Below, piece after piece: positions 2,677-61,645 of a stretch of DNA of 64,000 nucleotides (position 1 is the first letter of the stretch; each line of letters starts with the position of its first letter). Made by a program: the position numbers and the translations under genes. Under the pieces are notes generated by a model. The model saw only the letters and a list, made by a program, of their open reading frames with translations. It was not told the DNA's origin and did no database searches. Origin of the DNA: Acidobacteria bacterium RIFCSPLOWO2_12_FULL_66_21 (GTDB taxonomy: Bacteria > Acidobacteriota > Vicinamibacteria > Vicinamibacterales > 2-12-FULL-66-21); the NCBI GenBank assembly GCA_001767455.1, contig MELC01000029.1, forward strand, positions 38,318 through 102,317, read 5' to 3'.

Positions 2677-2943
2677 GTGAAGGAAGGGATCCACCCCAAG
2701 TATTTCAATATCGAGGCGCGATGCGCCTGCGGCGCGACCTGGAAGACCCGGTCGACGAAGCCGGAGCTCCACCTCGAGATCTGCAACAACTGCCACCCGT
2801 TCTTCACGGGCCGCCAGAAGCTGGTGGACACCGAGGGGCGCGTCGAGCGGTTCACGAAGCGGTTCGGCGCGCAGACGTCCGAGAGCCGCAAGACCGCCGC
2901 GAAGGCCAAGAAGGCCACCGAGACGGCGGCGGCTACGAAATAA
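2677..2943 (+). CDS. rpmE: 50S ribosomal protein L31, zinc-binding form
   Basis: 88 residues starting at GTG 2677, with AAGGAG at 2665-2670. The sequence opens [20 protein letters not shown] and carries four cysteines (16, 18, 36, 39) in the CxC...CxxC arrangement of the zinc-containing ('C+') L31 type. [18 protein letters not shown] is the usual central block. The tail is longer than in E. coli and rich in Ala and Lys ([17 protein letters not shown]). L31 sits on the central protuberance of the 50S subunit, and the C+ form is normally used when zinc is sufficient. Apparently monocistronic, with its own promoter and a strong terminator at 3071. Confidence 0.97.
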
Positions 2944-2944
2944 G

Positions 2945-3058
2945 CTGCCAGTCTCCAGCTTCCAGTTTCCAGCTTCCAGTTTCCAGCTTCCAGCTTCTGT
3001 CACGCTGTCCCGCTGATAGCTGATAGCTGATAGCTGATAGCTGATAGCTGATAGCTGA
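2945..3058. repeat. Two heptad tandem arrays after rpmE
   Basis: The first array (2951-2999) alternates GCTTCCA and GTTTCCA. The second (3014-3055) is six perfect copies of TGATAGC. They are separated by GTCACGCT-GTCCCGCT, two copies of an octamer. No ORF uses the region. This is one of more than a dozen period-7 arrays in the window. Confidence 0.95.
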
Positions 3059-4458: not shown

Positions 4459-7047
4459 CTAGACGGCCCCGCCCTGCGCCTGTACGTCGTCGAGCGGTCG
4501 AAGGGCCCCGGCGTCGAGCAACTGCTCGAGGATGCGGGAGGCCACCTGCTTGGCGTGGGGGCCCGTGTTCCCCTCGGGCCCGACACACGAGGGACAGCCG
4601 GATTCGCACGGGCACCCGACGATCAGGTCGCGCGTGCGCTCGAGCAGCAGGCCGTGCATCTCGTACAGCGGCCGGCTGAACCCGATGCCGCCCGGATAGT
4701 TGTCGTAGACGAAGACGTTCGGCGCGGACGCGAGCGCTTCGGGAATGCCGCCGATCCCGCCGGTCCGCGCGGACCGATCCAGCGTGCCGCCATCGACCGA
4801 CAGGCCGATGTCGTGCCCGTCGCACATCAGCAGCAACTGCGCGACGTTCTTCATCGCGAAGGCCAGGCCGACGACGCCGTCGCGCCGATCGTCGCCGGCA
4901 AACGGCAGCGACTGCATCACCGCCGGCGGGATCGTCAGCCAGTACGCCGACGTGTGCATCTGCTGCTCCGGCAGATCGAGCTCGCCGGATCCCACGTTCT
5001 CGTTCGTGTAGAACTTGATCTTCTTGAACCCCACGACACGGGAGACGACGTGGACCTCGCCATGCGACCGGCCGGCTGCGCCGGCCGCCTCCGCAGCTCG
5101 TGGCTCGTGGCTCGCAGCTCGCGCCTCACTGCTCGTGGCTCGGGGCTCGTGGCTCGTGGCTCGCGGCTCGTGGCTCGTGGCTCGTGGCTCGTGGCTCATT
5201 GCTCGTTCGGGGATGGTTACTGGCGACAGTCCGCTCTCAGCAACGCCTTCGCTGGCAAACGTATCGAGAATCGTCACCTTCGTGTAGGTGATGGCGTCGG
5301 TGTAGTAGTCGCAATCGACGGCGCGCAGGTAGGCCTTGCGGCCGTCGAAGTCGAGCCGCTCCACCTGGAAGAGCTGTCCTTCGAGCATGTAGATCGCCTT
5401 CTCGTGCAGCGTCGGGGGGCCGCTCGTGAAGTCGGTCTCGCCGATCACGCGTTCCCCGTTCGTCACGTCCACGATGACGAAATTGTCCGACGACACCGAC
5501 CGCAGGCTGACCGCGTCGGCGGGGTACGACTCGTTGGTCCAGTTCCACTGCCCGTCGGCCTGGTGGACGAAGCCCTCCTCGGCAAGCACGGCCAGGATCT
5601 CCTGCACGTCCTCCTGCCCGAACTGCTCGGCGGTCGCGAACGGCAGCTCGAACGCGGCGCATTTCACGTGGTCGAGCAGGATGTGCAGGTTGTCCGGGTT
5701 GATCAGCGCGTGCTCGGGCGACGCGTCGAAGAAGTACGAGGGGTTGCGGATGATGAACTGGTCGATCGGCGCGCTGCTCGCCACCAGCACGGCCGCGGAT
5801 CGCGTCGTGCGTCTGCCCGCCCGCCCCGCACGCTGCCAGGTCGAGGCGATGGTGCCGGGATAGCCGGCCATCACCGAGACGTCGAGCGCGCCGATATCGA
5901 TGCCCAGCTCCAGCGCGTTGGTCGCCACGACCGCGCGCACCTGTCCGTCGCGCAGCCCGCGCTCGATCTCGCGGCGGCGGTTCGGGAGGTACCCGCCTCG
6001 ATACCCGCGGATCACGTCCGCGGCTCCCGGCGGTCCCTGGTACGCGTCCTTCAGATACGTCGTGAGGATCTCGACCGCCAGACGGCTCTGGGCGAACAGG
6101 ATCAGCTGAAGATTGTGCTTGAGGAACTCCAGCGCGACACGCCGTGCCTCCGACAGGTACGACCGCCTGATGCCGAGCTCGGCGTTGACGACCGGCGGGT
6201 TCACGAACAGGAAGAACTTCTCTCCCCGAGGCGCGCCGTTCCTCTCGACGAGCTCGAACGGCCGCCCCGTCAGCCCTTCGGCCAGCTCGCGCGGATTCGC
6301 AATCGTCGCGGACGAGCAGATGAAGATCGGATCCGATCCGTAATGCCGGCACACGCGCTGGAGCCGCCGCAGGATGTTCGCCAGGTGGCTGCCGAACACG
6401 CCGCGATACGCGTGCAGCTCGTCGATCACGACGAAGCGCAGGTTCTCGAAGAGCTTCGCCCACCGCGGATGGTGTGGCAGGATCCCCGAGTGCAGCATGT
6501 CGGGGTTGCTGAGGACGACATGCGCCTTCCCGCGGATCGCGCGCCTGGCGTCGGCCGGCGTATCGCCGTCGTACGTGAAGACCCCGATTTGAAGGTCTGA
6601 ATCGCGGCTGACGAGCTGCGACAGCGCGTGCAGCTCCGCGAGCTGATCCTGCGCGAGCGCTTTCGTCGGAAACAGGTAGAGCGCGCGCGTCGCGGGGTCG
6701 TTCAGGATCGCATTCAGGACCGGCGCGTTGTAGCACAGCGTCTTGCCGGACGCGGTCGGCGTGATGGTGACCACGTTCCGCCCCGCGAGGACGTGCGCAA
6801 ACGCCTCCGCCTGGTGCGTGTAGAGCCGATCGACGCCGCGCGCCGCCAGCGCCGCCGCCAGGCGCTTGTCGGTCCCCTCGGGATACGGCGCAAACGAGGC
6901 GGTGATGGCCGCCATCCGGTGGGTGGCCGTGACAATCGGCTCCGCCTCCGCACCCAGCGGCGCCCGCGACGCCGTCAGCCGCCGCAGGACTTCCTGGAGC
7001 GATCGATCCTTGTCGCCTGACACAACCGGGAGGGTCTGTGATGCCAC
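4459..7047 (-). CDS. MrfA/YprA-like DEXH helicase with DUF1998-type zinc cluster
   Basis: 862 residues from a GTG at 7047. Superfamily 2 helicase motifs: THQ (Gln79, Q motif), PTASGKT at 97-103 (motif I), DELH at 209-212 (motif II), SSATI (motif III), and QRAGRAGRR (motif VI). The C-terminal region ends in a four-cysteine cluster, CPCESGCPSC (Cys 812, 814, 818, 821), as in the MrfA/YprA family. It probably unwinds or remodels damaged DNA with the exonuclease encoded next. Residues of about 614-652 are an alien insert, repeats of SHEPRAT, produced by a heptad DNA array lying between the helicase core and the C-terminal domain. It sits 4 bp after the PQQ-propeller gene, so the three genes form one operon. 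Confidence 0.9.
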   Translation of the reverse strand: MASQTLPVVSGDKDRSLQEVLRRLTASRAPLGAEAEPIVTATHRMAAITASFAPYPEGTDKRLAAALAARGVDRLYTHQAEAFAHVLAGRNVVTITPTASGKTLCYNAPVLNAILNDPATRALYLFPTKALAQDQLAELHALSQLVSRDSDLQIGVFTYDGDTPADARRAIRGKAHVVLSNPDMLHSGILPHHPRWAKLFENLRFVVIDELHAYRGVFGSHLANILRRLQRVCRHYGSDPIFICSSATIANPRELAEGLTGRPFELVERNGAPRGEKFFLFVNPPVVNAELGIRRSYLSEARRVALEFLKHNLQLILFAQSRLAVEILTTYLKDAYQGPPGAADVIRGYRGGYLPNRRREIERGLRDGQVRAVVATNALELGIDIGALDVSVMAGYPGTIASTWQRAGRAGRRTTRSAAVLVASSAPIDQFIIRNPSYFFDASPEHALINPDNLHILLDHVKCAAFELPFATAEQFGQEDVQEILAVLAEEGFVHQADGQWNWTNESYPADAVSLRSVSSDNFVIVDVTNGERVIGETDFTSGPPTLHEKAIYMLEGQLFQVERLDFDGRKAYLRAVDCDYYTDAITYTKVTILDTFASEGVAESGLSPVTIPERAMSHEPRATSHEPRATSHEPRATSSEARAASHEPRAAEAAGAAGRSHGEVHVVSRVVGFKKIKFYTNENVGSGELDLPEQQMHTSAYWLTIPPAVMQSLPFAGDDRRDGVVGLAFAMKNVAQLLLMCDGHDIGLSVDGGTLDRSARTGGIGGIPEALASAPNVFVYDNYPGGIGFSRPLYEMHGLLLERTRDLIVGCPCESGCPSCVGPEGNTGPHAKQVASRILEQLLDAGALRPLDDVQAQGGAV
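5094..5206. repeat. Heptad array inside the mrfA-like gene
   Basis: About sixteen heptads, mostly GGCTCGT with variants (GGCTCGC, GGCTCGG, AGCTCGC). Three heptads make 21 bp, i.e. seven codons, so the minus-strand protein shows a seven-residue repeat, SHEPRAT. The array keeps the reading frame open. Confidence 0.95.
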
Positions 7048-9897: not shown

Positions 9898-9953
9898 CAG
9901 TCGATAGTCGTTAGTCGATAGTCAAAGTCGATAGTCAAAGTCAAAGTCGAAGC
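9898..9953. repeat. Heptad array upstream of the AGCS symporter
   Basis: Plus-strand words GTCGATA and GTCGTTA alternate with six-base GTCAAA units. On the coding strand of the symporter this reads GACTATC/GACTTT, ending about three bases from the ATG. The octamer pair GTCACGCT-GTCACGGC follows at about 9959. Confidence 0.9.
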
Positions 9954-9987
9954 CAGAACGTCACGCTGTCACGGCCGCACGTGCAAC

Positions 9988-13620: not shown

Positions 13621-13807
13621 AGCTGGCGGGAGGCGGTGGACAGCATGCAGCTGGCGGCAGGCAGCGAGCAGCAGACAGCAGGCAGTGGATCACACCACCA
13701 CGCTGACAGCGTGTCAGTTCGACGTTGGAGGTTGGGAGTTAGGAGTTGGGCGTTTGGAGTTGACAGGCTCGGCTGACTGCCCGCTGCCTGCTGCCTGCTG
13801 CCTGCGA
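13621..13807. repeat. Three heptad arrays between the VanZ-like gene and the esterase
   Basis: GCAGGCA-type words (13651-13685), a GTTGGAG/GTTGGGA/GTTAGGA series (13723-13762), and CTGCCTG repeats (13784-13804). CACGCTGACAGCGTG at 13699-13713 is a perfect palindrome around one base. The last array ends 13 bp before the esterase start. Confidence 0.9.
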
Positions 13808-19357: not shown

Positions 19358-19387
19358 TGTTCCTGAATTATAGACCGCAGCTCGCAG

Positions 19388-19486
19388 CTCCCGCCTCCGC
19401 TGAAGCTTCGGCGCGGCAGGCTCCCGCCTCCGCTGAAGCTTCGGCGCGGCAGGCTCCCGCCTCCGCTGAAGCTTCGGCGCGGCAGG
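19388..19486. repeat. Three tandem copies of a 33-bp unit
   Basis: Units at 19388-19420, 19421-19453 and 19454-19486 appear identical. Each holds the near-palindrome CGCTGAAGCTTCGGCG around a HindIII-like AAGCTT core. The array ends just before the stop of the MetX-like gene (19492) and follows the start of the CBS gene. Confidence 0.97.
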
Positions 19487-19491
19487 CTCGT

Positions 19492-20562
19492 CTAGCGCGA
19501 AGTCTCGCTGGCTTTGAGCAACTCCTGCAGGTAACCCTTCCAGATCGCCGCCTGTGTGTGGGTCCCGTGGCCGACGGTGCGGTCGCTCAGCGGCATGACC
19601 ATCGCGCGGCCGTTGGGGACCCGCGTGATTTCCTTCTCGAGGATCTGCAGCTCGGGCGGGTTGACCAGGTCGTCGGCGGAGTTCACGGCGAGGAGCGGCG
19701 CCGCGATCTTCTCGAGCGCCGGACCGGGGTCGTAGTCGCGTGACGCCTCGAGCGCGTACAGGATGTCGTTCGCGTCACCGGTCCGCATGTAGTTCGTCAC
19801 GTACTGATCGATCTGGCGGTCCGCCTCGGCCACGGTCGGCGCGGCCTTTTGGCGGAGGATCGGATTGCTCCCGACGAGCCACAGCATCTCGGCCGCGGTG
19901 CGCAGGCTCTGCGGCTGTATCGTGTACTCGCCGTTCTTCCACTCGGGATCGTGCCTGATCGCGTCGATGACGACGCGGCGCCAGACGCGGTTGCGGCCGG
20001 CAATCTGCGTGGGAAGGCTCGCGAGCGGCATGAGCGCGTCCATCATGTCCGGATAGCGCTCGCCCCAGAGCCACGTGTGCATCCCGCCCATCGACGTCCC
20101 CATCACGAGCCGCAGGTGATTCACGCCCAGGCCGTCCGCGACGAGCCGATGCTCGGCTGCCACCATGTCGACGTAGCCGTAGCGCGGGAACTTCGCGTGA
20201 AGACCGTCGCTCGGCTTGCTCGACTTTCCATGGCCGATGTCGTCGGGAAGGATGATGTAGAACTTCGCGGCGTCGAGCGGCTGTCCCGGTCCGAACAGCT
20301 CGCCGGCGAAGCCCCGGCCCGTGAACTGCCCGCCCGTGCCGCCCGTGCCGTGCATGACCAGCACGGCGTTGCGCACCACGCCTTGCGCGTCCTTGCGCGG
20401 CGTGCCGTACGTCCGGTAGTGCAGCCGCAGCTCGGGGAGCGTCTCGCCCGAGGTGAACTGGAAATCGCGGATGACGAAATCCGCTTCGGTGGGCGCGGGG
20501 GGTGCGGAGGGCGTCCCCTGAACGGCAGCCAGCAGCAGCGACGTCAGTATCGACAGCAACAT
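19492..20562 (-). CDS. Secreted MetX-like alpha/beta hydrolase
   Basis: 356 residues with an N-terminal signal (MLLSILTSLLLAAVQG). It resembles the homoserine O-acetyltransferase (MetX) fold: VMHGTGGTGGQF (oxyanion region), nucleophile Ser157 in VMGTSMGGMHTW, Asp in VNSADDLVNPP, and His in VGHGTHTQAA. True MetX enzymes are cytoplasmic, so this exported form probably hydrolyses an ester or amide outside the membrane. Only the fold is safe. One cloverleaf element lies 163 bp upstream. Confidence 0.82.
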   Translation of the reverse strand: MLLSILTSLLLAAVQGTPSAPPAPTEADFVIRDFQFTSGETLPELRLHYRTYGTPRKDAQGVVRNAVLVMHGTGGTGGQFTGRGFAGELFGPGQPLDAAKFYIILPDDIGHGKSSKPSDGLHAKFPRYGYVDMVAAEHRLVADGLGVNHLRLVMGTSMGGMHTWLWGERYPDMMDALMPLASLPTQIAGRNRVWRRVVIDAIRHDPEWKNGEYTIQPQSLRTAAEMLWLVGSNPILRQKAAPTVAEADRQIDQYVTNYMRTGDANDILYALEASRDYDPGPALEKIAAPLLAVNSADDLVNPPELQILEKEITRVPNGRAMVMPLSDRTVGHGTHTQAAIWKGYLQELLKASETSR

Positions 20563-20620: not shown

Positions 20621-20920
20621 GGCGCGCGGAGACGACGATCACACGGAGACGACGATCACACGGAGACACGGAGGCCACGGAGGAGCGCGGAGAAGATCAG
20701 GCGCGACGGACATCCGGGTGGTGCGGTGCCGGTCTGGCCGCGCTGTGCGCGGTAAGACGGTCAGAGATCCACAGATGCAAACACGCGAAATCTCCGAGGC
20801 GTGCTTGCATCTGTGGATCTCTGACCGTCTGTTCCGCCGGCCGAGGTCCGCCGAGGCCGGCGACCAGACCGGCACCCTCCGTGCGTCTCCGTGTCCTCCG
20901 TGCCTCCGTGTCATGTCTTT
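20621..20920 (+). repeat. Cloverleaf element, copy 1, with flanking CGGAGAC/CTCCGTG arms
   Basis: Outer stem GGTGCCGGTCTGG (20725-20737) pairs with CCAGACCGGCACC (20864-20876). Inside are hairpin 1 (CCGCGC-TGT-GCGCGG, 20738-20752), a 32-bp stem (20755-20786 with 20799-20830, 12-nt loop, one mismatch), and hairpin 3 (GCCGGCC/GGCCGGC, 20837-20861). Beyond it, CACGGAGACACGGAGG-type repeats on the left (20640-20692) mirror CTCCGTG-type repeats on the right (20877-20912). There is no ORF. It occupies the space between a minus-strand hydrolase and the plus-strand hemerythrin gene. Confidence 0.9.
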
Positions 20921-21950: not shown

Positions 21951-22190
21951 GCTGGTGGCTGGGGGCTGGGCGCTGGCACCTGACACCGGTACTGTCACCT
22001 TGCGTCTGACGCGATGGCGATCGTGGCCTTCATGGAAACGATTATAGTGATAGCTGGCAGCAGGCGGCAGGCAGCTGGCAGCAGATCACACGGCCGGCTG
22101 CATGCTACCGGAATACGCACGAAGCCGCGTGGCAGCGTGACTCACTGCGCGCTGTCTGCTGCCAGCTGCATACTGCCTACTGCCTACTTC
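21951..22190. repeat. Heptad arrays between the hemerythrin gene and the oxidoreductase
   Basis: GCTGGTG-GCTGGGG-GCTGGGC-GCTGGCA (21952-21979), AGCTGGC/AGGCGGC words (22055-22083), and CTGCCAG/CTGCCTA words (22150-22185), the last ending a few bases before the next ATG. TATAGT at 22043-22048 could be a -10 for the downstream gene, without a clear -35. CAGCGTGACTCACTGC at 22132 is the linker motif seen beside other arrays. Confidence 0.85.
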
Positions 22191-22192
22191 TC

Positions 22193-22768
22193 ATGACTCA
22201 CATCGCCATCATCCAGGGACATCCGGATCCAGCGGGCAACCGCTTCGGGCACGCGCTCGCGGCGGCGTACGCCGACGGCGCGCGCGCGGCAGGACACATC
22301 GTCAGCCTGACGGACGCCGGCCGCCTCGAGTTTCCGCTGGTGCGCACGAAAGAGGATTTCGAGACGGGGCCCGTGCCCCCAGCCATCGTGGAGGCGCAAG
22401 CGGCAATCGAAGCGGCCGCCCACCTCGTCTTCTTCTATCCGCTCTGGTTCGGGACGATGCCCGCGCTGTTGAAGGGATTCATCGAACAGGTGTTCCGGCC
22501 TGTGTTCGTCAACGGCGCGGTGGGGAATTTCTCCAACCTTCGACTCAAAGGAAGGACGGCCAGGCTGGTCGTCACGATGGGGATGCCGGCACTGGCCTAT
22601 CGCTGGATGTTCGGTCGCTTCGGCTGGAACGGCATGGAGGCTGGCATGCTGAAGCTGTGCGGCATCGCTCCGGTCAGCACCACGCTCATCGGCCAGGTTG
22701 ATGCCTCCGCCGCGGCGCGCGCGGGCTGGCTCGCGAAGATGCGAATCCTCGGGCAGCGTGGGGCGTGA
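22193..22768 (+). CDS. NAD(P)H-dependent oxidoreductase, flavodoxin-like fold
   Basis: 191 residues. The N-terminus THIAIIQGHPDPAGNRFGHAL is the FMN/FAD phosphate-binding loop of the NQO1/MdaB/KefF group, LVFFYPLWFGTMPALLKGFIEQVF is the conserved YPLWW-like segment, and VVTMGMPA follows. Cytoplasmic quinone or nitro reductase using a bound flavin. The C-terminus is shorter and lacks the long loop of NQO1. A heptad array takes the place of a normal ribosome-binding site. Substrate not known. Confidence 0.87.
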   Translation: MTHIAIIQGHPDPAGNRFGHALAAAYADGARAAGHIVSLTDAGRLEFPLVRTKEDFETGPVPPAIVEAQAAIEAAAHLVFFYPLWFGTMPALLKGFIEQVFRPVFVNGAVGNFSNLRLKGRTARLVVTMGMPALAYRWMFGRFGWNGMEAGMLKLCGIAPVSTTLIGQVDASAAARAGWLAKMRILGQRGA

Positions 22769-22791
22769 GGCTGACAGTATTGGGCGGGCAG

Positions 22792-22876
22792 CGGGACTCA
22801 CTGCCAGCTGCCTGCTGCCTGCTGCCAGCTGCCTGCCGTCACACTGCCAGCTGCTTGCTGCCAGCTGCCAGCTGAC
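22792..22876. repeat. CTGCCAG/CTGCCTG heptad array
   Basis: About ten heptads (CTGCCAG, CTGCCTG, CTGCTTG) with GCCGTCACA interrupting, after a CAGCGGGACTCACTGCC linker. It lies between the oxidoreductase stop and the terminator of the mtrB-like gene. Confidence 0.9.
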
Positions 22877-26577: not shown

Positions 26578-26765
26578 GCCGGTCTGGCAGCGCGTCGCGC
26601 GCTGAGAGGATCTGAGATCCACAGATGCAAGCACGCCTGAGCGTTCCGCGTGTTTGCATCTGCGGATCTCAGATCCTCTCTATGCCGGCCTGGAGAATGA
26701 CCGCAGGCCGGCGCCAGACCGGCGTCCACTCCGCGCGTCTCCGTGATCTCCGTGCCTCCGTGTGA
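26578..26765 (+). repeat. Cloverleaf element, copy 2
   Basis: Outer stem GCCGGTCTGGC (26578-26588) with GCCAGACCGGC (26713-26723). Hairpin 1 CAGCGCG-TCG-CGCGCTG (26588-26604), a 32-bp stem (26605-26636 with 26648-26679, 11-nt loop), hairpin 3 GCCGGCCT/AGGCCGGC (26684-26712). The CTCCGTG tail runs from 26730. It lies in the 578-bp gene-free stretch 26260-26837 between the decaheme start and the end of the ABC permease; the rest of that stretch shows no ORF or known motif beyond the inverted repeat at 26363. Confidence 0.9.
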
Positions 26766-28671: not shown

Positions 28672-28785
28672 TCAGCGGGCAGCTGGCAGCTGGCGGCTGG
28701 CAGTGTGTCTCGCTGCCTGCTGCCTGCTGCCTGCTGCCCGCTGCCCGCTGCCCGCCGCCTGCTGCCTGCTGCCAGCCGTCATTGC
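28672..28785. repeat. CTGCCTG/CTGCCCG/AGCTGGC heptad array in the ABC operon
   Basis: More than ten heptads fill the whole interval between the permease start and the ATPase stop (28779), running into the last codons of the ATPase gene (its C-terminus ...VAALQ). On the operon's coding strand, the part nearest the permease start reads CTGCCAG. Confidence 0.9.
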
Positions 28786-32933: not shown

Positions 32934-32949
32934 TGGACGTTCTCCTGAT

Positions 32950-33046
32950 CTACAGCTTCCAGTTTCCAGCTTCCAGCTCCCAGCTCCCAGCTTCCAGCTA
33001 CGAGCCCCGAGCCCCGAGCCCCGAGCCCCGGGCCCCGAGCCCCGAT
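32950..33046. repeat. Two heptad arrays before the propeller gene
   Basis: GCTTCCA/GTTTCCA/GCTCCCA words (32953-32999), then GCCCCGA copies (33003-33043). The second block ends directly at the CocE-family stop codon. Confidence 0.9.
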
Positions 33047-35041
33047 CTACTTTATTCGTGCGCCCTCGTCTACCAGCACGGTAATGGACGATCCATGGAA
33101 CACGCGCTCGGTCGCTCTCTGGAAGTCCGCGGCCGAAGCTCTTGGGATCTCCATGAACTTCTGCGGATTGCGATCGACGAGCGGAAACCACGAGCTCTGG
33201 ATCTGCACCATGACGCGGTGTCCCTTGCGGAACGCATGGTAGACGTCCGGCAGCTCGTAACGGATCGACGTCGCCTGGCCGGGCACGAACGGCTCCGGCT
33301 TCTCGAAGCTGTTGCGGTATTTCCCGCGAAACGGCTCGCCGCGCACGAGCTGCTGGTACCCGCCCATCTTCACCGCATTCGACGGCGGCCGCTGCCCTTG
33401 CGGCGGGAGCGGCGTCGGGTAGTCGCCGGGGTACACATCTATGAGCTTGACGACGAAGTCCGAGTCGGTGCCTGAGGTGGACACGGTGAGATCGACCTTC
33501 ACCGGCCCGGCGATCACGAGATCGGCGTCGAGCGGCCCGGTCTGATAGACCAGCACGTCCGGCCTCTGCGAGGCAAATCGCTGATCCTCGGTCATGTAGT
33601 CGCCTGTTATCCCCGGGACGATGTATCCGACGTACGGCACCGGATGATTCGGATCGCTCACGTACTCGTCGTACGTTGTGGGGTTGGGAGTTGGGCGTTG
33701 GGAGTTGGGAGTCTGAAGTTTGGAGTTGGCAGTTTGAGAGCTCGGGAGTTGGGAGTTGGAAGTTGGGAGTTGGGCGTTGTCTGCGAGCCGTCCGTCAAGG
33801 GCGAAGCTCAGTGTGAGCGGCTTTGCGTCCTTCGGCGGCCACTCGGTGTGCCGCCGCCACTCGTTGATGCCGGTCAGAAACATCCAGGCTTCCGGCAGAT
33901 CGACTGTCTTGTCCTTCAGGTACTTCACGAAGAACGGGAATTGAATGCGCTCGCGGAAGAACTCGCCGGTCTTCACCGAGAAGTTCAGGTTGCCGAGCCG
34001 GTCGCCCGGACCGCGGCCCCACCCGCCGTGCGACCACGGGCCCATGACGAGCATGTTCGGCGTGGCGGGGTTCTTCCGCTCCACGGATCGATACACGCGG
34101 AGCGGCCCGAGCGGATCCTCGGCGTCGAACCATCCGCCGACGTTCAGGACCGCGCACTTCACGTTGTCCATGAACTTCCAGACGGAGCGTTTCTTCCAGA
34201 AGTCGTCGTAGGTCGTGTGATCGACGATTTCCTGCCAGTACGCGGCAGCTCCCCCGAACAGCTCCTGGTTCATGCGCGAGAGCGGCGGCGCGTGCAGCAG
34301 AAAGTCGTACGCGTCCGGCGTGCCGGGATCGAAGCGGATTGCAGGCTTTGGCGGCGTGGGCCCATCGGGGCGCGGCACGAATCCCGAGTAGAACCCGAAG
34401 TTCGCCCCCAGCATGAACGCGCCGTTGTGATACACGTCGTCGCCCATGTAGTAGTCGGCGGTGGGCGCCTGCGGCGAGGCGGCCTTCAGCGCCGGGTGCG
34501 AGTCGATGATGCTGGCAGCCACGTGGAAGCCGGGCTGCGACACGCCGACCATCCCGACGCGGCCGTTGTTGTTCGGCACGTTCTTCAGCAGCCACTCGAT
34601 CGTGTCGGAGGCGTCGCTGCTCTCGTCCACGTCCTTCGACGTCTTCTTGACGGGGATGTATGGGCGAACCTGCTGGAACTCCCCCTCTGACATGTAGCGG
34701 CCGCGCGCGTCCTGGTAGACGAAGATGAAGCGCTCCTTCTGGAAGTGCTCGGAGGGCCCGAGCGACGCGCGGTACTGATCGACGCCGTATGGCGCGACGT
34801 TGTACGGCGTCCTCGTCAAGAGGAACGGGTACTTCTCGGACGTGTCCTTCGGCGCATATATAGAGGTGAAGAGGCGCACGCCGTCCCGCATCGGGACCCT
34901 GTACTCGTACTTGGTGTACTGCGCCCGGACCTCATCGGCCCCGGCCGGGGCCTGCTGCGCACCCGGCCGGCCCGCAAGCAGGAGAATGCCCACTGCAAAG
35001 GCGACCGAGCCATGACTCTTCAGTTGAGGTGTCCTGAGCAT
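33047..35041 (-). CDS. CocE/NonD-family hydrolase (X-Pro dipeptidyl peptidase type)
   Basis: 664 residues from ATG 35041, signal peptide MLRTPQLKSHGSVAFAVGI. Alpha/beta domain with RTPYN and YQDARGRYMSEG, the usual N-terminal blocks, then the nucleophile elbow VGVSQPGFHVA; the family usually has GxSYxG, so the Tyr is replaced by Gln. A GPWSHGGWG segment gives the His. A C-terminal jelly-roll follows (DLTVSTSGTDSDFVVKLIDVYPGD). Residues of about 420-455 (LPTSNSQLPSSQTANSKLQ-like) are a heptad-repeat insert between the catalytic and jelly-roll parts. Exported peptidase or ester hydrolase. Confidence 0.87.
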   Translation of the reverse strand: MLRTPQLKSHGSVAFAVGILLLAGRPGAQQAPAGADEVRAQYTKYEYRVPMRDGVRLFTSIYAPKDTSEKYPFLLTRTPYNVAPYGVDQYRASLGPSEHFQKERFIFVYQDARGRYMSEGEFQQVRPYIPVKKTSKDVDESSDASDTIEWLLKNVPNNNGRVGMVGVSQPGFHVAASIIDSHPALKAASPQAPTADYYMGDDVYHNGAFMLGANFGFYSGFVPRPDGPTPPKPAIRFDPGTPDAYDFLLHAPPLSRMNQELFGGAAAYWQEIVDHTTYDDFWKKRSVWKFMDNVKCAVLNVGGWFDAEDPLGPLRVYRSVERKNPATPNMLVMGPWSHGGWGRGPGDRLGNLNFSVKTGEFFRERIQFPFFVKYLKDKTVDLPEAWMFLTGINEWRRHTEWPPKDAKPLTLSFALDGRLADNAQLPTSNSQLPSSQTANSKLQTPNSQRPTPNPTTYDEYVSDPNHPVPYVGYIVPGITGDYMTEDQRFASQRPDVLVYQTGPLDADLVIAGPVKVDLTVSTSGTDSDFVVKLIDVYPGDYPTPLPPQGQRPPSNAVKMGGYQQLVRGEPFRGKYRNSFEKPEPFVPGQATSIRYELPDVYHAFRKGHRVMVQIQSSWFPLVDRNPQKFMEIPRASAADFQRATERVFHGSSITVLVDEGARIK
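33677..33780. repeat. Heptad array inside the CocE-family gene
   Basis: GTTGGGA, GTTGGGC, GTTGGAA, GTTTGGA words in about 14 units, in frame. The minus-strand translation is rich in Gln, Asn, Pro, Ser and Thr. It lies where the catalytic and jelly-roll domains meet. Confidence 0.93.
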
Positions 35042-35186
35042 GCGGCATTCTACCCGGAACTCGAAGACTGTCACGCTGCACGCGCCGAGGGCATCGCTGC
35101 ACGAAGGGCGCCGAAGACTGTCACGCTGAACGCGCCGACGGCTTTCATTGCACGAAGGGCACGAAGACCGCCATTCTCATTGGTGC

Positions 35187-35385
35187 TGCCGGTCTGGCCG
35201 CGCTTCGCGCGGTGAGGGGGTCTGAGATCCGCAAACACAAACACGCCCGCGGTTGTCGCGTGCTTGTGTTTGTGGATCTCAGGCCCCCTCTAACGCACCT
35301 CTAACGCCGGCCCGAGGCTGCCGAGGGCCGGCGCCAGACCGGCATCAGCTCCGTGCGTCTCCGTGCCCGCCGTGCCTCCGTGTGA
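35187..35385 (+). repeat. Cloverleaf element, copy 3
   Basis: Outer stem TGCCGGTCTGG (35187-35197) with CCAGACCGGCA (35334-35344). Hairpin 1 CCGCGC-TTC-GCGCGG (35198-35212), a 33-bp stem (35214-35246 with 35258-35290, 11-nt loop), hairpin 3 GCCGGCCC/GGGCCGGC (35306-35332). A 15-bp extra segment (TAACGCACCTC and a second TAACGCC) separates the stem from hairpin 3. The CTCCGTG tail runs from 35350. It lies in the 433-bp divergent region 35042-35474, whose left part (35068-35170) repeats TGTCACGCTG and CACGAAGGGC. Confidence 0.9.
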
Positions 35386-38322: not shown

Positions 38323-38353
38323 TGAGTTGATTGTACAAGAGGTCGGGCTCGTC

Positions 38354-38550
38354 GGGGTAATCTTCACGAAACCTGTTGCGCAGGGCTTCAGCCCTGCCTG
38401 ACCCCTTCGCCGGAGACGACTCGGAGTAATCTTCACGAAACCTGTTGCGCAGGGCTTCAGCCCTGCCTGACCCCTTCGCCCGGAGACGACTCGGAGTAAT
38501 CTTCACGAAACCTGTTGCGCAGGGCTTCAGCCCTGCCTGACCCCTTCGCC
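38354..38550. repeat. Three tandem copies of a 69-70 bp unit with REP-like hairpins
   Basis: Copies at 38354-38422, 38423-38492 and (truncated) 38493-38550. Each contains GTTGC and GCAGGGCTTCAGCCCTGC followed by CTGACCCCTTCGCC; the first two also end CGGAGACGACTC. The third copy ends in GAGG, which serves as the ribosome-binding site of the ADOP gene. Confidence 0.95.
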
Positions 38551-61574: not shown

Positions 61575-61600
61575 AAGAGAGCCGGCCTACCGCCCGCTGT

Positions 61601-61645
61601 GACTTCGACTGTGACTTTGACTATCGACTATCGACTATCGACTCT
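61601..61645. repeat. GACTATC heptad array before glmS
   Basis: GACTTC/GACTGTG/GACTTTG, then three GACTATC and GACTCTG. It ends 17 bp before the glmS ATG. The same word in the same orientation lies before the AGCS symporter start (9898-9953). Confidence 0.92.

Follow-up and report, generated by a model that had tools for sequence, protein, structure and literature searches.

A dispersed three-hairpin palindrome of the Vicinamibacterales whose compensatory changes probably reflect folding of DNA rather than RNA

Introduction

The 64,000-nucleotide stretch of DNA analysed here (the window), from Acidobacteria bacterium RIFCSPLOWO2_12_FULL_66_21, holds three copies of a long hairpin, and the third of them, at 35214-35290, raises the question of what keeps the two arms of a stem complementary while their sequence changes. 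Covariation of this kind usually ranks as the strongest computational sign that an RNA is functional. We propose instead, with a probability of roughly 0.7 and judging from sequence comparison, that the hairpin belongs to a non-autonomous mobile DNA palindrome resembling REPINs and MITEs, the arms of which would be kept complementary by folding of the DNA strand, with a putative enzyme acting in trans.

Results and Discussion

Architecture of the element

The long stem at 35214-35290 is the central hairpin of an intergenic element of about 300 bp. Tandem outer arms, with units of the CACGGAG or CACGAAG type, surround a closing stem of 11-12 bp, which carries a short hairpin (hairpin 1, CCGCGC..GCGCGG), a stem of approximately 33 bp, and a second short hairpin (hairpin 3, CGCCGGCC..GGCCGGCG). 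The outer arms are arrays that are ACACGGAGGCACGGAGCACACGGAGACGCACGGAG-like to the left of the core and the inverse of these to the right; such mutually inverted CACGGAG/CACGAAG arrays constitute terminal inverted repeats, as in MITEs. In other subfamilies the outer-arm unit is CACGAAG, AACGAAG, CGCAGAG or CACAGAT, with the matching inverse on the opposite side.

In copy 3, read like the other two on the plus strand, the 5' strand of the closing stem (TGCCGGTCTGG, 35187-35197) pairs with its 3' strand (CCAGACCGGCA, 35334-35344); both are identified by the fold and by a structural descriptor, and the 5' strand also by covariation. Within this stem the fold places hairpin 1 (CCGCGC-TTC-GCGCGG, 35198-35212) and hairpin 3 (CGCCGGCCC ... 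GGGCCGGCG, 35305-35333), which correspond to helices 2 and 4 of an alignment of 44 copies. Between them lies the long stem, an inverted repeat with 33-nt arms (35214-35246 and 35258-35290, both recovered by fold and alignment as well), a complementarity of 91%, and an unconserved 11-nt loop (35247-35257) delimited by the inverted-repeat call. The 159-nt core has a folding energy of -119.6 kcal/mol, whereas dinucleotide-shuffled sequences reach -67.7 +/- 4.5 (z = -11.6). On the left, sequence comparison reveals a remnant of an outer arm with CACGAAG-type units (35149-35170), similar to units left of L079/L104-type copies, while the right outer arm (35349-35385) consists of CTCCGTG units (CTCCGTGCGTCTCCGTGCCCGCCGTGCCTCCGTGTGA) that are common to all three window copies. 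Because the unit types of its left and right arms differ, copy 3 looks chimeric.

In copy 1 (hairpin 20755-20830), a left outer arm of ACGGAG units (20660-20692) precedes a core of closing stem and three hairpins (20725-20876; long stem 20755-20786 / 20799-20830), which is followed by a right arm of CTCCGTG units (20877-20909). Copy 2 (hairpin 26604-26680) has a core at 26578-26723 (long stem 26604-26636 / 26648-26680) and a right outer arm at 26729-26761, and its left arm is not recognisable. Both cores were recovered by the descriptor.

Covariation of the stems

The first-pass annotation of this DNA had claimed that the long stem changes in a compensatory manner between copies. Copies 1 and 2 carry CAGATGCAA opposite TTGCATCTG, and copy 3 carries CAAACACAA opposite TTGTGTTTG, which amounts to three double changes with pairing kept; the compensation stands, although the letters quoted for the 5' arm of copy 3 (CAAACACAAG) have to be corrected to CAAACACAAA.

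The check that had been proposed, a covariation analysis of a larger alignment, bears this out, and independent variation of the two arms did not occur. Among 25 copies of one subfamily, 24 of the 45 predicted pairs undergo double changes. Across 44 divergent copies with a mean column identity of 55%, 91.4% of stem cells pair, against 71.6% after shuffling and 33-40% (maximum 39.6%) with slid partners; double changes are present in 48 of the 57 pairs, covariation is found in all 11 pairs of the closing stem (helix 1), and double-change cells number 509 where 163 are expected, far above single-side changes. We also applied a tree-based null in the manner of R-scape, in which substitutions are randomly redistributed over a FastTree tree and column pairs are scored with a G-test and average-product correction. 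The significant column pairs all fall inside the structure for 25 copies (3 of 3) and inside predicted stems for 73 copies (17 of 17), with coarse E-values from 10-20 simulations and with alignment and structure derived from the same sequences, many of them paralogues.

The best-conserved part of the long stem lies near its tip, where the 5' arm carries the motif RCRARC (ACAAAC in copy 3). This motif or its T-ended form occurs in 72 of 74 stems, counted with a short pattern that was accepted anywhere within the arm. Within the motif, columns 62/87 of the 44-copy alignment (A4) form a conserved mismatch site, which is G-C in 15 copies, G·T in 13, A·C in 15 and A-T in one, and the pairs flanking it are fully paired. 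A-T is thus almost absent from these columns despite both letters being common there.

Double changes need not imply selection. Template switching between the arms of an inverted repeat creates and repairs hairpins and gives double changes without selection (PMC8794818), so that one arm may be copied onto the other in replication, several bases may change on both sides in one step, and a functionless fold may persist in old insertions. The mechanism is established for hairpins, and the single-step, multi-base changes described for it (PMC8794818) resemble the three linked double changes that occupy a single block of copy 3. One-sided intermediates are likewise few at many pairs (for example, pair 52/92 of alignment A2 is GC in 13 copies, AU in 11, CG in one and GU in none), and the mismatches are symmetric between strands (see below). 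However, those template-switch hairpins were described for RNA genes, and copying of arm onto arm explains only that arms match: alone, it fails to account for the conservation across families of both short hairpins (1 and 3), of the closing stem, of the branch order and of the near-tip motif, or for the spread of the element. Moreover, the A-C/G-T site at columns 62/87 stays uncorrected beside positions that are almost fully paired. We therefore consider it unlikely, though deserving of serious weight, that template switching is the whole explanation.

Dispersal and insertion between genes

By BLAST, the home genome has the element at dozens of sites. A 25-copy covariance model identifies approximately 45 distinct copies there, matches on both strands being counted once; the family has further copies in other genomes, G004 and G002 among them. 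A second model, built from the 44 divergent copies, recognises the fold in 6 of 12 genomes belonging to the family and, at the level of the order, in 20 of 120, which represent several families. When the new matches from across the order were folded, most shared almost no sequence and yet retained the three-branch layout (two loci that were cut short were left out, and the closing of L185 is less regular). The descriptor relies on no model and specifies a closing stem on which a long hairpin stands between two short ones. It retrieves all three copies of the window as well as known copies elsewhere; one match, in G010 (-67 kcal/mol, A+T-rich), looks false, and G004 copies were missed, probably because the descriptor allows no bulges. 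A phylum-wide scan with the first model scored 7 candidates per genome at low sensitivity and offers no basis for statements of absence. Blastn of plasmid and phage collections returned no match to the element, viral contigs gave no pattern match, and the single hit of an exact-pattern contig scan, on a Lachnospiraceae contig, was taken as chance.

The copies are mostly old and divergent. A group of short copies (L038-L046) lacks the long stem or its centre, a loss that is expected for deletion within DNA palindromes. At one locus (L137; G000:C86, 195677-199040) the element is halved by approximately 3.1 kb containing a remnant of a MacB/FtsX-like permease, with the two halves of the core, left at 195.7 kb and right at 198.9 kb, sharing one orientation.

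All 47 loci inspected are intergenic, lying between tandem (27), divergent (11) and convergent (9) gene pairs, as called by a simple codon-usage script rather than by annotation. Within tandem pairs there is a mild bias in orientation (19 vs 8, p = 0.05). Two loci are filled in the home genome and empty in relatives, as in MITEs, and the element therefore inserts. At sucD-korA, where the home genome carries the element, the distance from the sucD stop to the korA motif is 514 bp; in 28 relatives in which these two genes are likewise paired, it ranges from 58 to 401 bp and the element was not seen. A gain is favoured as the more economical account, since the alternative would require 28 losses. 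The TATAAT-like box that precedes korA persists downstream of the insert. Another copy in the home genome separates a VWFA-like gene from argG, two genes that G010 also has as a pair, but with no element between them; upstream of argG in G002 there is an apparent decayed copy of that genome's own type. The ends of the element are not sharp enough to delimit a target-site duplication.

DNA or RNA folding

As the first-pass annotation implied, the stem could belong to a structured non-coding RNA or an RNA regulatory element. The very strong fold and the covariation agree with this, and the orientation bias within tandem gene pairs could hint at an effect at the transcript level. An RNA under selection should tolerate G·U and not A·C, and a comparison of the two mismatches is hence a simple discriminator of DNA from RNA folding. 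The residual mismatches had been described, rightly, as mostly wobble or A-C pairs, and the two kinds prove equally common: the structural alignment contains 66 G·T and 62 A·C mismatches (p = 0.79), one special site being left out of this count. On the transcribed strand, the long stems of the 27 copies between tandem genes contain 28 G·U against 36 A·C (p = 0.38), and all long stems together contain 99 G·T against 77 A·C (p = 0.11). When both strands are folded, the counts agree (144 vs 151 for G·U and 69 vs 73 for A·C). G-U is thus not in excess of A-C on either the normalised or the transcribed strand, and copies are found between divergent, convergent and tandem genes alike. The window has no match to Rfam at the gathering score, and the matches below it are solely to microRNA models, which fit any long hairpin. 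An RNA is, in our judgement, very improbable.

The symmetry of the mismatches and the occurrence of the element in all gene arrangements favour folding at the level of DNA, and the pattern of change in these sequences likewise appears to point to DNA rather than RNA. What had been called selection on structure thus survives in part: pairing is indeed maintained, whereas selection in the sense of an RNA does not fit the lack of strand preference among the mismatches or the nature of the copies as dispersed, inserted repeats, and has template switching as an alternative. A transcription terminator was rejected by reasoning because divergent settings (11 loci) are as frequent as convergent ones (9) and a T-run 3' of the stem is absent from the copies read.

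Comparison with known mobile elements

The nearest known kind of element is the REPIN. Compensatory changes across the mobile hairpin are common in REPINs (PMC3116915), which, like the element described here, are dispersed, intergenic, palindromic and non-autonomous, and the intermediate proposed for them is a hairpin in single-stranded DNA. Mobilization as a REP/REPIN element by a Y1 (RAYT/TIRYT) transposase would accord with these features and with the presence of three Y1 transposase matches in the home genome. Nevertheless, no credible copy of the element lies in the flanks of any of 32 Y1 loci from 10 genomes (the home genome and nine others), and the lone weak match there (L217, 22.6 bits) lacks the element fold and was taken as chance. 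The Y1 genes L050 and L051 instead have palindromes of another kind on their flanks (GCAGCCCTTCAGGGCTGC type), L049 is bordered by repeats of the GGGGTCAGACCCC type, and G002 bears the element and has no Y1 match. Architecture and size differ as well, since a REPIN is a short doublet built from a conserved REP, in contrast to an element of about 300 bp that has three hairpins on a closing stem, a central stem of 33 bp and tandem outer arms, and that is hardly conserved in sequence. Nor does alignment A4 contain a conserved REP end tag (GTAG/CGTC); CGTC occurs in the closing stem of some copies and not of others. Movement by a Y1 enzyme therefore seems highly unlikely.

A retron-like msr-msd or another reverse-transcribed element would resemble ours in superficial layout only, with short hairpins and one long one inside a closing stem. 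An RVT_1 domain (E <= 0.001) is absent from G000, G002 and G433 and occurs once in G004, so that three of four element-bearing genomes have no reverse transcriptase match, and we regard this possibility as negligible. Searches of the Y1 and reverse transcriptase families yielded no mobilising enzyme or autonomous relative.

ERIC, RUP, BOX and Correia/NEMIS repeats are families recognised by sequence and have a narrow host range. They share with the element its size range, inverted repeats, intergenic insertion, and modular copies that miss parts; however, the element keeps its fold while its sequence turns over across an order, and we identified no parental transposon or target duplication for it. 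Palindromic selfish repeats, including double-hairpin elements, are also described for organelle DNA (PMC2670323; Paquin et al. 2000, cited therein); such repeats are recognised by structural features more than by sequence, although they are simple hairpins of 10-100 nt in organelle genomes.

Other repeats in the window

Several further repeats accompany the element. Adjoining copy 3 (35062-35142) is a pair of 31-bp direct repeats spaced 50 bp apart (CGAAGACTGTCACGCTG.ACGCGCCGA.GGC), which resembles the module at the outer flank in the CACGAAG subfamily. Three tandem 70-bp copies at 38341-38549 contain the hairpin GCAGGGCTTCAGCCCTGC after CCTGTTGCG; as similar palindromes flank the Y1 transposase genes L051 and L050 in the same genome, these copies seem to represent a REP family and its RAYT, separate from the three-hairpin element. 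A heptamer-type array (GGGAGTT units, 33676-33784) lies in frame within a gene for an X-Pro dipeptidyl-peptidase (33047-34993, minus strand), to which it adds a low-complexity stretch (QLPTSNSQLPSS...). Tandem arrays with 7-bp units are found at 2938-3011, 5096-5207, 9899-9960, 13773-13805, 22052-22872, 28675-28769, 32935-33029 and 61595-61643, with units such as CAGCTTC, GCTCGTG, GCTGCCT, CGAGCCC and AGTCGAT; the unit length is constant, the sequence varies, and some arrays form inverted pairs. Finally, three perfect tandem copies with 33-bp spacing (GCTCCCGCCTCCGCTGAAGCTTCGGCGCGGCAG, 19387-19489) lie just past the end of an abhydrolase gene (19492-20562, minus strand).

A model for the element and its implications

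In the mobile palindrome that we propose, copies would insert between genes in either orientation, and the DNA strand would fold as a single-stranded hairpin or a cruciform, equally on both strands. The complementarity of the arms would be kept because DNA folding is what matters or what is repaired, and template switching between arms probably helps to keep them matched. A putative enzyme in trans would recognise the folded DNA and then move or copy the element; the near-tip motif (RCRARC / GYTYGY) probably aids this recognition, and one might guess that a protein reads the motif or its mismatch site. The literature searched (open-licence papers) contains no description of this repeat. Tentatively, and with a confidence well short of even, we suggest that it represents an undescribed mobile family, spread across the order, whose defining feature is the shape of the folded DNA, a closing stem with three hairpins, and not the sequence, its enzyme reading a DNA cloverleaf or cruciform together with a short tip motif and its conserved mismatch.

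Covariation on the scale found here accompanies strand symmetry and transposon-like behaviour, and would accordingly mark DNA and not RNA. The family supplies, per genome, dozens of long palindromes that vary naturally, with both filled and empty sites, and may allow a direct test of the long-standing question whether compensatory evolution is due to selection or to template-switch repair.
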